Shown here: piece after piece, positions 24,791-30,216 of the stretch
Layout of the letters: the number at the start of each line of letters is the position of its first letter
How positions within the stretch are numbered: position 1 is the stretch's first letter
Source of the DNA: Sphingomonadales bacterium
GTDB lineage: Bacteria > Pseudomonadota > Alphaproteobacteria > Sphingomonadales > Sphingomonadaceae
Length of the DNA: 64,000 nt
Direction: 5' to 3'
Assembly (NCBI GenBank): GCA_004173185.1
Contig: SEFZ01000011.1
Span: 62,001-126,000, forward strand
Notes under the pieces: generated by a model
Seen by the model: only the letters and a program-made list of their open reading frames with translations
Databases searched by the model: none
Told to the model about the DNA's origin: nothing
Translations under genes and position numbers: made by a program

Positions 24791-25975
24791 ATGACACCCG
24801 CAGCACGTACTCAGGCCGCCATCGAATTGCTCGACCGGATCATCGCCGCCGCCCGCGATCAGGGCGCGGCAGCCGACACGCTGATCGCGCGCTGGTTCGC
24901 CGAGCGCCGTTATGCCGGCTCCAAGGACCGCCGCGCGATCCGCGAACTGGTCTATGATGCGATCCGCATGTTTGGAAAACCGCCCGAAAGCGGCCGCGCT
25001 GCGATACTGTCGCTGGCGAAGGACCGGCCCGAGATGGCCGAGTGGTTCGATGGCTCGCCTTATGGCCCCGCCGCGATCGAGCCCGATGAGCCGGTCGCCA
25101 AGCCCGCCTTCGCGCATGACTGGTTGATCAAGGCGCTGCGTGCGTCGGACATCGGCATCGAAGAACAGGCCGCGCTGCTCCAGCGCGCGCCGCTCGATGT
25201 CCGCGTAAACAGTCTCAAGGCCGATGCCGACGCCGTGCTCGCCACGATCGAGGGCGCGGAGCCGATCCCGTTCACGACCGACGGCCTCCGCCTGCCCAGC
25301 GACGCGCCGGTCGAGCAATTGCCTTCGTTCCGCGACGGCGAGATCGAAGTGCAGGATGCCGGCAGCCAGATCGTCAGTCTCGCCAGCGGCGTGCGGCGCG
25401 GGCAGCATGTCATCGATCTGTGCGCAGGCGGTGGCGGCAAGACGCTGGCGTTGGCTGCGATGATGGCGAACCATGGCAGCATCCTCGCTTGTGACGTCGA
25501 TCGTGGCCGCCTCCAGCGCCTGCCGCCGCGTGCCGAGCGGGCAGGGGTCACCATTGCGGAAACCCGGCTTCTCAATCCCAAGCAGGAGGATAGCCAGCTT
25601 GCCGATCAGGCGGGCCGAGCCGATGTCGTGCTGATCGATGCGCCTTGCTCGGGCACCGGCACCTGGCGCCGCAACCCGGAGGCACGCTGGCGGCTTACCC
25701 CGCATCGGCTGGCCCAGTTGGGCGAGACCCAGCGCTATCTGATGCGGATGGCGGCCGAACTGGTCCGCCCCGGCGGGCATCTGGTGTATATCGTCTGCTC
25801 GGTGCTGGACGATGAGGGCGCGAACCAGGTCGATGCGTTTCTCAAGGCCTATCCCGGCTGGACCGCCGAGCCGCTGGCACCCGGCGCGGGCACCCCGCGC
25901 GGCGCAGGGCTTCGCCTCACCCCGCTGGGGGACTCGACCGACGGCTTTTTTGTCGCGAAGATGCGGCGGCCATGA
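24791..25975 (+). CDS. RsmB/NOP family rRNA m5C methyltransferase
   Basis: VIDLCAGGGGKTLALAAMM...VLIDAPCSGTGTWRRNPEARWR...YIVCSVLDDEG. Confidence 0.92.
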   Translation: MTPAARTQAAIELLDRIIAAARDQGAAADTLIARWFAERRYAGSKDRRAIRELVYDAIRMFGKPPESGRAAILSLAKDRPEMAEWFDGSPYGPAAIEPDEPVAKPAFAHDWLIKALRASDIGIEEQAALLQRAPLDVRVNSLKADADAVLATIEGAEPIPFTTDGLRLPSDAPVEQLPSFRDGEIEVQDAGSQIVSLASGVRRGQHVIDLCAGGGGKTLALAAMMANHGSILACDVDRGRLQRLPPRAERAGVTIAETRLLNPKQEDSQLADQAGRADVVLIDAPCSGTGTWRRNPEARWRLTPHRLAQLGETQRYLMRMAAELVRPGGHLVYIVCSVLDDEGANQVDAFLKAYPGWTAEPLAPGAGTPRGAGLRLTPLGDSTDGFFVAKMRRP

Positions 25976-26007
25976 TAGCCACAAAGGCCAGTTTCTCGGA
26001 GTTATCG

Positions 26008-26511
26008 ATGCGCGTTACCGCGATTTCTGCTGCTGCTGCCCTGTTGCTCCTCTCGGTTTCGACCTCGCTGATGGCACAGCGCCCGGATGCCCAGATCGAT
26101 CCGCGCTCGCTGGCGCTGCTGCAGGAAGGCCGCGCCGCACAGGCTGCCGGCAATATCGACGGCGCCACCGATGCGCTGGAAAGCGCGCTCGCGGTCGATC
26201 CGCGCAACCGTCAGGCATTCGTGCTGCTCGCCGAGATCGCCCGCGGCCGCGATCTGCCCGGCAAGGCGATCCGCCTCTACCGGGAAGCGCTGCTGCTGGA
26301 GCCCAACGATCTCGCGGCGCTGCGCGGACAGGGTGAAGCGATGGTCAGCAAGGGCGCGATGGAGAAGGCCAAGGCCAATCTCGCCAAGATCAAGACGATC
26401 TGCACCACGGGCTGCAACGACGCCAATGTGCTTGCCGCTGCGATCGACAAGGGGCCGCCCGTTACGGTGACGGCATCAGCCGAGAAGCCCGCGGAGCCGG
26501 CCAAGCCCTGA
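26008..26511 (+). CDS. Tetratricopeptide repeat protein, secreted
   Basis: Signal peptide; TPR-like NIDGATDALESALAVDPRNRQAFVLLAEIARGRDLPGKAIRLYREALLLEPND. Confidence 0.85.
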   Translation: MRVTAISAAAALLLLSVSTSLMAQRPDAQIDPRSLALLQEGRAAQAAGNIDGATDALESALAVDPRNRQAFVLLAEIARGRDLPGKAIRLYREALLLEPNDLAALRGQGEAMVSKGAMEKAKANLAKIKTICTTGCNDANVLAAAIDKGPPVTVTASAEKPAEPAKP

Positions 26512-26714
26512 AGCTGTCGCGCAACTGCTTGCGCCGCAGCGTAGGGGAAGGGCGGGCCAAAGCCGCTGTTTCACGGTCTCGCGGCGCGAATGTTCCCCAA
26601 TGTTCGCACTGACCATGGGGGGGCGGAGCGACGATTTCAAAGAGCAGGTGGCAGAGCCACCAGAGCATGTCGCTCTTAGCCAAGCAGGCGAAATCCTACT
26701 TTGCAAGGTGATGC

Positions 26715-26745
26715 TTGGCGGATTCTGGGTGGGAAGCGGTCATTC
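26715..26745 (+). repeat. Cassette-type repeat copy 1
   Basis: ttggcggattctgggtgggaagcggtcattc. Confidence 0.6.
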
Positions 26746-26764
26746 CTGCTCGCCAGTTTCAACG

Positions 26765-27295
26765 CTACCAACCTAGACGGTGGCGCGTCCGCTGCCACCA
26801 TGAGCCCTGCCCCGAAGAGGCCGCTGCCAAGAGTCGCTTCGCTTGCGTTGCGGTGACACCAAGCAGAAGCGCGATCTCCTCCACAGAGATGTCGGGCCGT
26901 TCCTTCCGCAAGTGTTCTGCAGTCCAGACCAGCGACGGAGAGAGTCGCTCTAAGAAGACGCAGGGTCGAATGCGCAAGGCGTGCCCTGTTTTAAGCACGC
27001 GCTCGTAGCTGAGAAACTCAATCGGCCATTCGGCATCGACAGAAATGCGGTTGGCCTCATCGACGGTCAACCGCCGTAGAAAGTGCTCATCGAAGATGCG
27101 CTCTTCCTGAGCAATCATCCAGTGTTGAGCGCAGGCGCGGCACTGAGAAAGGTGTAGCCACCAAGCACCTCCGCCATGATCGACGAGATTCTCGATAGTC
27201 GAGAACACTCTCTCGTCGAGACCGTCGCCGCCCATTGGAACTGCGGCTAAGTCAGGCAGGGATGCGCAACGGCAAGAGCTTGCGGCTTCATTCAT
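26765..27295 (-). CDS. Hypothetical protein with C-terminal HTH-like segment
   Basis: MNEAASSCRCAS...CRACAQHW...PDISVEEIALLLGVTATQAKRLLAAA. Confidence 0.6.
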   Translation of the reverse strand: MNEAASSCRCASLPDLAAVPMGGDGLDERVFSTIENLVDHGGGAWWLHLSQCRACAQHWMIAQEERIFDEHFLRRLTVDEANRISVDAEWPIEFLSYERVLKTGHALRIRPCVFLERLSPSLVWTAEHLRKERPDISVEEIALLLGVTATQAKRLLAAASSGQGSWWQRTRHRLGW

Positions 27296-27319
27296 CAAAG
27301 CATGATGCGGCCAAGGGTG

Positions 27320-27350
27320 AACGTCCGCAACTGGGTGGGAAGCGGCCAGC
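27320..27350 (+). repeat. Cassette-type repeat copy 2
   Basis: aacgtccgcaactgggtgggaagcggccagc. Confidence 0.8.
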
Positions 27351-27392
27351 CTGCTTTCTGGCGGCGGGCACCATTTCATGTGAAAAGGTGGT

Positions 27393-27809
27393 ATGGGCAT
27401 CTTGTATAAATCCGCCGCCACTATTGGCTTCTATGGTGATGATCTCGACCCGGCAGAGGTTACAGCGGCGTTGGGTGCCGAGCCTACCGTGGGGGTGCGT
27501 AAGGGCGGCCAATGGGAAACCAAGCTAGGAGCGATAAAAGTAGCGGTGACGGGATCGTGGCGCATGAAAGCTGAGCGTTGCGAGCCGGGTGATCTGGACG
27601 GCCAAATCAACGGCTTGCTCGATGGCTTATCGAATGACCTCGTTGCATGGCGGTCTTTTTCACAGCGATACCGTGGCCGGGCTTTCTGTGGACTGTTCCT
27701 CGACAGCGGAAACGAAGGTCTGACATTGCGCGCCGAAACGCTGTTGCGTTTAGGAGAGCGCGGGCTGCTGATCGACTTGGACATCTACGGCTTGGACCAG
27801 CCTGACTAA
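27393..27809 (+). CDS. DUF4279-like protein
   Basis: ATIGFYGDDLDPAEVTAALGAEPTVGVRKGG...LDGLSNDLVAWRSFSQRYRGRAFCGLFL. Confidence 0.75.
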   Translation: MGILYKSAATIGFYGDDLDPAEVTAALGAEPTVGVRKGGQWETKLGAIKVAVTGSWRMKAERCEPGDLDGQINGLLDGLSNDLVAWRSFSQRYRGRAFCGLFLDSGNEGLTLRAETLLRLGERGLLIDLDIYGLDQPD

Positions 27810-27838
27810 CGGCCGCAAATGGGTCGAATGCGGACACG
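27808..27838 (+). repeat. Cassette-type repeat copy 3
   Basis: aacggccgcaaatgggtcgaatgcggacacg; overlaps the stop codon of the upstream ORF. Confidence 0.8.
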
Positions 27839-27841
27839 CGG

Positions 27842-28147
27842 TCACATTCCGCCTGTGTAGAAAATAAGGTCCGGAGGCATTAGGACAAGCATAATAGCGC
27901 CGACACAACCGGTTGCACCTGCCCACCCATTACGCAGTGATGCTCCAAGGAGCGCAAGTGATAGCAGCGCCATGCCGAGTGGGATGTGCAAATAATAGTT
28001 TCGTTGCCCGCTATTGGGAAAGCCGGGCACGTTCTGCGCCGCTATGTCGGACATCACGTCAAAGCCGCGCAGCGCGAGATAGCCCCATGCAAGCGATGCC
28101 AGTAAGATTGGCAGGCGGGACAACAACATGCCTCCAAGCCTAATCAT
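27842..28147 (-). CDS. Small membrane protein, hypothetical
   Basis: MIRLGGMLLSRLPILLASLAWGYLALRGF...; three hydrophobic segments. Confidence 0.6.
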   Translation of the reverse strand: MIRLGGMLLSRLPILLASLAWGYLALRGFDVMSDIAAQNVPGFPNSGQRNYYLHIPLGMALLSLALLGASLRNGWAGATGCVGAIMLVLMPPDLIFYTGGM

Positions 28148-28163
28148 CCAACCGCATCGCCAC

Positions 28164-28195
28164 AACGTCCGCAATTGGGTCGCTACTGGCGTGAC
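28164..28195 (+). repeat. Cassette-type repeat copy 4
   Basis: aacgtccgcaattgggtcgctactggcgtgac. Confidence 0.75.
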
Positions 28196-28223
28196 CGCTG
28201 TTGGTCGCCCTGCCATGACGCCC

Positions 28224-28255
28224 AACGGCGTCAAATGGGTGGACAACGGACGTTC
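28224..28255 (+). repeat. Cassette-type repeat copy 5
   Basis: aacggcgtcaaatgggtggacaacggacgttc. Confidence 0.75.
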
Positions 28256-28291
28256 GTGGTGAAGATTAGAGACACGGCTCGGAGCGTGACG

Positions 28292-28585
28292 ATGCGGCAG
28301 AACGACAGCCTTATGACGGTGATGGCATGGCAGCAAACATCGCGCTTCGTAGTCTTGGGCCTGCTGTTTCTCAGCGGCTGCCAGTTCCTTGCCGCTGCCT
28401 TGGTATATCGCACCGTCGGCAGAAGCGAGACCGATACGCTGATCTTTGCCGGTTGCCTCATGATGGCCGGGTTCGCTTTCGCCCTTGGCTTGGCGTTCAG
28501 AAAGTCAGGGGCGCCCACTTGGAAGCACAAGTTGGCGGTCGCCGTCGTAGCGCTGCCAGCGGCGATAAGTTTGCTTTTACGCTAA
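28292..28585 (+). CDS. Small membrane protein, hypothetical
   Basis: MRQNDSLMTVMAWQQTSRFVVLGLLFLSGCQFLAAALVYRTVG...; three to four hydrophobic segments. Start 28292 or 28313. Confidence 0.55.
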   Translation: MRQNDSLMTVMAWQQTSRFVVLGLLFLSGCQFLAAALVYRTVGRSETDTLIFAGCLMMAGFAFALGLAFRKSGAPTWKHKLAVAVVALPAAISLLLR

Positions 28586-28612
28586 AGACCGCAATTGGGT
28601 TTTTACCGGCCC
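28584..28612 (+). repeat. Cassette-type repeat copy 6
   Basis: aaagaccgcaattgggtttttaccggccc; overlaps the stop codon of the upstream ORF. Confidence 0.7.
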
Positions 28613-28644
28613 GGCGTCTTTTGGCGCAGCAGATCGAGGGCCGC

Positions 28645-28676
28645 AAAGGCTGAAATTGGGTGAAATGCCGACATTG
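28645..28676 (+). repeat. Cassette-type repeat copy 7, degenerate
   Basis: aaaggctgaaattgggtgaaatgccgacattg. Confidence 0.5.
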
Positions 28677-28688
28677 GCATGCCCAACG

Positions 28689-29330
28689 TTATGCCGCTGC
28701 TGTTCGACGCCAGCGTTCGTTTATCATTGCCCAGATAGCTGCGCCAGCTAACAAGAGAATCCCAGCGCACAACGCTATCATTTGTCCGATAGCGTTGCTT
28801 TCCATTAGACCGGGCGCACCAGCCGCCGATATAACCAAGTGTGGTTGCGCCGATTGAAGCGATGACGCCCGACCTATCGAGCGGACGTCCAGGTGGTAGG
28901 TTTCTCCGGTGGCGAGGCGAATGTGTGCGCCCACCCAAGTATAGGTATCCGCACCTTCATATTGGCCGCCTGCCAGCGAAGTGGACGGGGTGATTTCACC
29001 GGTTAAGTTGCGCCCGTTTGACGACGCTTTGAGCGCTAAAACCACTGGCCAAGGCGAGGCTGGAGTTTTGCACTCCGCCTTCTGCATCGCGTCTACAGAC
29101 ACCGTGCAGGGATACATCCGTTCTGCCGTCTCCCGGTTCATCCTGACGCCAATTGCGTACGTTTCCGTGTATCCGGCCTGAAACGTTACCTGCTTTGTCG
29201 TCCCAGGCGTGAGATCGAATGGCCCGAAATCAATCACGGGGTTAGGACGAAGCGCCACTACCAAGTTTAGCAGCACGGCCAATCCGATTAAACCTAGCGG
29301 ACCAAGTTTGCGCAAAAGACGCGTTTTCAT
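28689..29330 (-). CDS. Membrane-anchored hypothetical protein
   Basis: N- and C-terminal transmembrane segments around a predicted extracytoplasmic domain. Confidence 0.6.
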   Translation of the reverse strand: MKTRLLRKLGPLGLIGLAVLLNLVVALRPNPVIDFGPFDLTPGTTKQVTFQAGYTETYAIGVRMNRETAERMYPCTVSVDAMQKAECKTPASPWPVVLALKASSNGRNLTGEITPSTSLAGGQYEGADTYTWVGAHIRLATGETYHLDVRSIGRASSLQSAQPHLVISAAGAPGLMESNAIGQMIALCAGILLLAGAAIWAMINERWRRTAAA

Positions 29331-29352
29331 CCCTACGGTCTAAAGGCGGACG

Positions 29353-29383
29353 GAGTGTCCGCAAGTGGGTCGTGAGCCGCCCC
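29353..29383 (+). repeat. Cassette-type repeat copy 8
   Basis: gagtgtccgcaagtgggtcgtgagccgcccc. Confidence 0.7.
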
Positions 29384-29391
29384 TACAGCCC

Positions 29392-30216
29392 TTAGTCTTT
29401 CGGGCTCAACACCCGCGCGAGTTCGACGAACTCCCCGACGGAGACCGTCTCGGCGCGTCGGGCGGAATCGATCCGGAGCGTCTCCATCGCCTCCAGCGCG
29501 CCGGGCACGCCTTTCAGGCTTTGGCGCAGCATTTTGCGGCGCTGGCCGAACGCGGCGGCGGTTAGCGCCTCCAGCGTTTTGAAGCGCACGCCCTTGGGCT
29601 CGGCGGCGGGGGTGATGTGCACCACGGCCGACATCACCTTGGGCGGTGGGGTGAAGGCCGAGCGATGGACCGTCATTGCGATCTTCGCGGTCGAGCGCCA
29701 TTGGGCCAGCACCGCGAGCCGGCCATAAGCATCGTCGTTCGCGCTGGATACGATCCGTTCGGCGACTTCCTTTTGGAACATCAGCGTCAGGCTTGCCCAC
29801 CAGGGCTCCCACTGTGCCGAGAGCCAGCCGACCAGCAACGCGGTGCCGACATTATAGGGAAGGTTTGCCACGACATGCGGCTTGCCGGTGAACAGCGACG
29901 GGGCGTCCACCTCCAGCGCGTCGCCCTCGATCACGCGCAGCTTGCCGGGGAAAAATTCGCCCAGCTCGGCCAGCGCGGGGATGCAGCGGCGATCGCGCTC
30001 GACTGCCACTACGCTGGCGCCCGCTTCGAGCAGGGCGCGCGTCAGTCCGCCTGGTCCCGGGCCGACCTCGAACACTTCCTGACCGGCAAGCGCACCCGGC
30101 ACCTTGGCGATGCGGGCGAGCAATTGGTGGTCGAACAGGAAGTTCTGTCCCAGCGCCTTGCTGGCGCTCAGACCGTATCGCTGGATGACGTCGCGGAGGG
30201 GAGGTAGGTCATTCAC
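29392..30216 (-). CDS. rsmA: 16S rRNA dimethyladenosine transferase
   Basis: [49 protein letters not shown]...[14 protein letters not shown]. Confidence 0.97.

Follow-up and report, generated by a model that had tools for sequence, protein, structure and literature searches.

What kind of element fills the gap between a TPR protein gene and rsmA on a Sphingomonas chromosome with five small-gene cassettes? The gap, here 2.9 kb long, lies in a 64-kb window (the whole stretch of DNA that we analyzed, 64,000 nucleotides) whose contig is C47 of a 5.07-Mb draft genome. Integrons are the textbook route by which bacteria collect single genes. They are nearly absent from the Alphaproteobacteria, with 5 in 2879 genomes (PMC6054849). 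The array described here works like an integron cassette array, yet by three tested features it is not an integron. Its parts are given below, with B denoting the left-end type of site and A the right-end type.

25972 to 26511, plus strand: TPR protein gene (Pfam TPR), the left flank, preceded by an RsmB/F-type rRNA methyltransferase gene.
26714 to 26741, plus strand: site 1, left-end type, CTTGGCGGATTC-TGGGTGGGAAGCGGTC (cassette right arm, outer left arm).
26726 to 27331, minus strand: cassette 1, core to core, with an ORF of ~176 aa at 26765-27295 on the minus strand.
27320 to 27347, plus strand: site 2, a single hybrid junction (left arm of right-end type, right arm of left-end type).
27393 to 27809, plus strand: ORF of cassette 2, DUF4279, 138 aa (Pfam PF14106, E=2.7e-18), its stop codon overlapping site 3.
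27808 to 27835, plus strand: site 3, a single hybrid junction (A left arm, B right arm).
27842 to 28147, minus strand: ORF of cassette 3, a small membrane-like protein from the ORF list, its ATG at 28147, 17 nt from site 4.
28164 to 28251, plus strand: compound junction of sites 4 and 5, with 60-bp spacing, 1 of 53 such junctions.
28164 to 28191, plus strand: site 4, A type, in the compound junction with site 5.
28224 to 28251, plus strand: site 5, B type, in the compound junction with site 4.
28292 to 28585, plus strand: ORF of cassette 4, a small membrane-like protein, its stop codon abutting site 6.
28584 to 28672, plus strand: compound junction of sites 6 and 7, with 61-bp spacing.
28584 to 28611, plus strand: site 6, in the compound junction with site 7.
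28645 to 28672, plus strand: site 7, in the compound junction with site 6.
28689 to 29330, minus strand: ORF of cassette 5, 213 aa, with hydrophobic segments at both ends and its start codon 24 nt from site 8.
29354 to 29381, plus strand: site 8, right-end type, AGTGTCCGCAAG-TGGGTCGTGAGCCGCC; homology to the nearest relative, G081, restarts at 29385.
29392 to 30216, minus strand: rsmA, 16S rRNA adenine dimethyltransferase, the right flank (Pfam RrnaAD, E=7e-45).

When scanned with a matrix derived only from 98 sites in other genomes, the 64-kb window yields exactly eight matches, scoring 17.3 to 36.0, with no match on its minus strand. As a control, 12 Markov-shuffled windows gave 5 matches scoring at least 10, the best reaching 12.1. 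The original prediction had described eight copies of a repeat, each of which we recover within 1 bp of where it was placed (26714, 27320, 27808, 28164, 28224, 28584, 28645, and 29354). Its claim that the TGGGT center keeps a constant orientation agrees with the matrix search, which puts all eight sites on the plus strand, and the ORFs do point both ways, three minus and two plus. Its remark that the repeat was not seen elsewhere in the window holds, as the window has just these eight; in the genome, more copies lie on contigs C5, C33, C89, C111, and C120. DUF4279, in cassette 2, is the only Pfam family among the cassettes of the window; the ORF of cassette 1 has no Pfam or NCBIfam family, and that of cassette 3 gave nothing above the cut-off in Pfam. 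An Rfam search of the window array returned no match.

The consensus of 305 sites is AAYGTCCGCAAY-TGGG-KSG-WWAGCNGMC, 28 bp in total, a dyad in which the inverted arms GNCNG and CNGNC flank an asymmetric TGGG center. Counted as two 11-bp arms and a 6-bp center, it has the geometry of Xer sites, defined as 28 bp in an 11+6+11 arrangement (PMC6449649). On the cassette side, a left-end (B) site reads TGGGTGG-NNAGCNGNC and a right-end (A) site reads AACGTCCGCAA. Internal junctions take two forms, either a single hybrid, with an A left arm and a B right arm, or a compound, in which an A core and a B core lie 60 to 61 bp apart (53 of 70 close pairs in the pooled loci) with a conserved GNCNGCTTTTGG arm between them. 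The 60-bp linker of the compound junctions may serve as an additional binding region, or it may be a cassette reduced to its minimum. Pairs 4-5 and 6-7 had been taken for empty units because compound junctions hold two sites so closely spaced; the conserved 60- to 61-bp spacing identifies them as compound junctions instead.

The description of the repeats as palindromic fits the inverted arms GNCNG...CNGNC; it fails for the asymmetric TGGG between them and for any hairpin conserved by base pairing. Neither RNAalifold nor mutual information found a covarying stem in 17, 25, or 56 aligned sites, and single-strand folding was no better than that of shuffled or neighboring sequence (mean z of -0.34 for the top strand, -0.48 for the bottom strand, and -0.54 for the control). 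The R boxes RYYYAAC/GTTRRRY do not occur in canonical order, either in the position frequencies of the 305 sites or in the compound alignment. The substrate at attC is a folded bottom strand (PMC8618304), and the lack of a conserved fold therefore sets these sites apart from attC.

The same design recurs widely within one order. Genome-wide site counts rest on pattern and model searches; the model search of 121 genomes of the genus returned tens of matches in some (53 in the complete genome G126, 51 in G102, and 50 in G112), often as same-orientation series, and the regions around them repeat the design of the window. More than 12 cassettes are packed within 6 kb in S. leidyi DSM 4733, which belongs, as does S. 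kyeonggiensis DSM 101806, to the genus of the window genome. When 85,488 species genomes were searched for exact matches, 43 loci emerged, all in Sphingomonadales (Sphingomonas, Erythrobacter, Altererythrobacter, Croceicoccus, and relatives) except for one in a MAG labelled Parvibaculum. The 305 sites come from 919 kb of carrier loci, in which a reversed control found 0; neighboring sites share an orientation in 190 of 203 pairs, and lone sites also occur. Between sites lie 133 intervals of median length 484 bp, each with roughly one small ORF, and this recurrence of one-ORF units at same-orientation sites in many genomes bears out the proposal of a cassette or mobile-repeat system. In the pooled loci the longest ORF opposes the TGGGT strand in 88 intervals and follows it in 44; 15 of the opposing ORFs end exactly at a TAA inside the B site, and the start codons of opposing-strand ORFs cluster 24 to 26 nt after the A site. 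Genes are thus coded mostly on the ACCCA strand and have the site at their 3' end.

The cargo is varied. Between them, 101 cassette proteins match 50 Pfam families, nearly all matched once, including DUF4279, DUF4272, Imm33-like, SUKH/SMI1, Rap1a immunity, beta-lactamase-fold hydrolase, alpha/beta hydrolase, Excalibur, and pentapeptide families, and the genes are mostly small ones with no assigned function or for membrane or immunity-like proteins. PADLOC gave a single weak defense match among the 101 proteins, and there is no recombinase among the best 25 of the 50 Pfam families. The exact site was not found in viral contigs, and in a comparison with plasmids the S. leidyi array matches three Rhizobium replicons only, through one cargo gene and not through the sites.

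Comparisons between species, with one genome per species, provide the evidence for mobility. Cassette 1 of the window has an 80% identical copy at an unrelated locus in G023 (L326:5679-6283), adjoining a SURF1/cytochrome oxidase cluster, and the homology is confined to 26725-27330, bounded by TGGG on the left and GTCCGCAA on the right. The window genome has one 250-bp cassette at two loci: one lies upstream of arsC, the other in the interval separating a YkuD-type gene from ppc. Between G112 and its sister G228, whose rsmA identity is 94%, a 338-bp cassette is replaced by a 1562-bp one at the same cores, and at a second locus 444 bp is replaced by 487 bp, again at the same cores; flanks and outer site halves are common to both species. 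S. kyeonggiensis carries a tandem duplicate of a 484-bp cassette, with identity running from a TGGG to 8 nt past the next TGGG. Across the array zones, 56 of 151 ends of homology fall within 15 bp of a core, against 7.8 expected. Several Sphingomonas species show that such units insert, exchange, and duplicate and that the breakpoints lie within the 28-bp sites, and we are confident that the cassettes are mobile at these sites. The original prediction had proposed looking for gain or loss of whole units, and whole units are indeed gained, swapped, and duplicated between species, with their edges inside sites; we also looked for the two contrary outcomes that it named, elements scattered without ORF association and ORFs in one unvarying order across relatives, and observed neither.

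Relatives also show the loci without cassettes. The gap between the TPR gene and rsmA measures 0 to 355 bp and has no sites in 26 of the 29 nearest relatives; GNAT and arsC genes lie 9 bp apart in ten relatives and 776 bp apart, with two cassettes, in the window genome; and the array of G143 is absent from G098. We considered the gap of G081, the nearest relative, as the empty target site of the window array and rejected it, as an unrelated 2.5-kb insert (L150:5252-7752) fills it; given this insert, the gap looks like an insertion hotspot. Core-by-core exchange does not explain how a cassette first enters a locus such as the one between GNAT and arsC, where the insert supplied the left arm itself and begins behind CTGAA, ~12 nt beyond a TGGGGCG in the end of the gene. 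The arsC locus is a shared hotspot, with different cassettes in the distant species G000 (the window genome) and G126 (L013/L218, L101/L225) and none in most relatives.

We consider it likely that the window array comprises five mobile cassettes, each with a single gene, and that they are moved by a site-specific recombinase with a geometry like that of Xer. Each cassette extends between the TGGG cores of two successive 28-bp sites; one of its ends is the right arm of a left-end site, TGGGTGG-NNAGCNGNC, and the other is the left arm of a right-end site, AACGTCCGCAA. The recombinase would bind the two inverted ~11-bp arms and exchange strands in or beside the ~6-bp TGGG-containing center; recombination between two direct sites would release a cassette as a circular molecule, which would then insert at another site. 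Such a circle would carry one core-joined site, AACGTCCGCAA-TGGG-TGGNNAGC. The asymmetric core would set orientation, and under this proposal arrays are head-to-tail because it does so. Less firmly, the enzyme may be a tyrosine recombinase, either the host XerC/XerD, given the dif-like 11+6+11 layout, or one supplied from outside.

Which enzyme might do this? The original prediction likened the array to integrons while noting that neither an integrase nor canonical attC boxes were in evidence, and both remarks hold: an integron integrase gave no match above the cut-off in the window genome, and the R boxes do not occur in canonical order. Among the 121 genomes of the genus, IntI exceeds the cut-off in one, G076, which is not array-rich, and a RAYT-type Y1 transposase occurs in 12 and is absent from most array-rich ones, so the suggested check for co-occurrence of an integrase or Y1 transposase found neither co-distributed with the arrays. 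The G076 integron integrase is itself genuine, at 508 bits (L285, G076:C15:13996-14940), and rare for Alphaproteobacteria. The one RAYT-type match of the window genome is on contig C71 (L039, G000:C71), the composition of which is unlike the rest of the genome and which is probably contamination of the draft (reported contamination, 5.55%). No enzyme was tied to the arrays by position or co-occurrence among the cargo or the recurrent neighbors examined; those neighbors are syntenic housekeeping genes or RHS proteins.

The array-rich, complete genome G126 narrows the field, as it has only three tyrosine recombinases: an XerC-like one, whose gene we take to lie beside gshB; an XerD-like one, presumably beside accA; and one of prophage type, with an Arm-DNA-bind domain, ~32 kb from the nearest listed site. 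A resident mover of the tyrosine recombinase family would therefore be XerC/XerD or the prophage enzyme; otherwise the mover would be imported from outside or belong to a different recombinase family. That host XerCD moves the cassettes is our tentative guess, and a minority one. Two Xer-like integrases (L031, L032) lie beside IS91-type transposase genes, with similar integrase matches in several relatives, G107 and G069 among them.

Three other explanations were weighed. The one that survives best, though we think it unlikely, is that the sites are dispersed REP-like repeats with no dedicated enzyme, brought beside accessory genes by a different route, with RecA-type or illegitimate recombination between them shuffling the intervening DNA. 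They resemble REP/BIME elements in being short, numerous, and scattered between genes, in having inverted arms, and in frequently touching stop codons; lone sites exist, the enzyme searches found none, and exchange directed by homology between scattered repeats would produce breakpoints much like these, which counts against the recombinase explanation. Yet 28 bp, of which ~20 positions are informative, offers little length for exchange by RecA, the breakpoints lie only a few bases from a single 4-base core, and head-to-tail orientation, fixed 60- to 61-bp spacing, and one-ORF packing are unexpected of passive repeats; unlike REP/BIME elements with their RAYT, moreover, most carriers here have no RAYT, no hairpin is conserved, and the units between repeats are mobile. 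Somewhat less plausible still are cargo-carrying MITEs, in which the A and B ends would be the terminal repeats of nonautonomous transposons that a transposase inserts beside or into each other. Single B-ORF-A units at new loci with no visible resident site would suit such transposons, as would arms inverted relative to one another at the two ends; however, we saw no consistent target duplication, the cargo differs in every unit while the ends are alike, sister species swap cassettes inside fixed ends, most array-rich genomes have no Y1 transposase, and neither recombinase nor transposase was seen in the cargo (best 25 of 50 Pfam families). We think it very improbable that the array is a strongly diverged integron or CALIN whose atypical attC sites depend on an IntI that is absent or imported, for although head-to-tail single-ORF cassettes gained and swapped at sites (here between species), sites at gene 3' ends that often hold the stop codon, and mostly uncharacterized or immunity-like cargo are all integron traits, most carriers have no IntI (1 of 121 genomes, G076 not being array-rich), the sites have neither an attC-like fold nor a covarying stem in 56 of them, R boxes are absent in order, the breakpoint lies in a double-strand dyad with a TGGG core, and the coding strand is mixed at ~2:1. 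The cargo of small, uncharacterized, membrane, and immunity-like genes is also that of sedentary chromosomal integrons.

For site-specific recombination at Xer-like sites, the closest comparison is with dif. The dif consensus has the inner arms ATAA/TTAT; compared by eye with this consensus, the sites here are unrelated in sequence and do not have these arms. Like the pdif (Xer) modules of Acinetobacter, the arrays place 28-bp 11+6+11 sites around small accessory genes with no module-borne recombinase (PMC6449649). Unlike them, they have direct sites (190 of 203 pairs) rather than alternating XerC/D and XerD/C inverse pairs, and they form chromosomal tandem arrays with compound 60-bp junctions. 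The array matches none of the other known families tested, and we found no description of such a cassette system in the open-access literature (full text); on these two grounds, we regard the system as new. The original interpretation is supported except where it took the 30-bp gaps for empty cassettes.

We incline, with some reserve, to the view that Sphingomonadales have a cassette system of their own, independent of integrons and based on TGGG-core dyads, worked by XerCD on non-dif sites or by a new enzyme. If so, cassette trading evolved more than once, with the same logic on unrelated sites, and single genes, a number of them immunity-like, are captured, stored, and shuffled in a class nearly without integrons. 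The sites would then open a reservoir of uncharacterized small genes, some immunity-like, that can be mined by site; a complete genome leaves few candidates for the enzyme; and sphingomonads might gain a new genetic tool.

Several cassettes encode immunity-type domains. Some arrays lie near large RHS-repeat (polymorphic-toxin-like) genes: L102, L103, L104 (S. kyeonggiensis), L207, L208 (G176). A second dispersed repeat, GCCAAGCAGGCGAAATCCTACATTGCAAG, sits at window positions 26650-26712, immediately left of the array; it also lies left of three G112 arrays (L109, L110, L111), is solitary in relatives (L153; L150; L151), and may be a preferred landing place for arrays.
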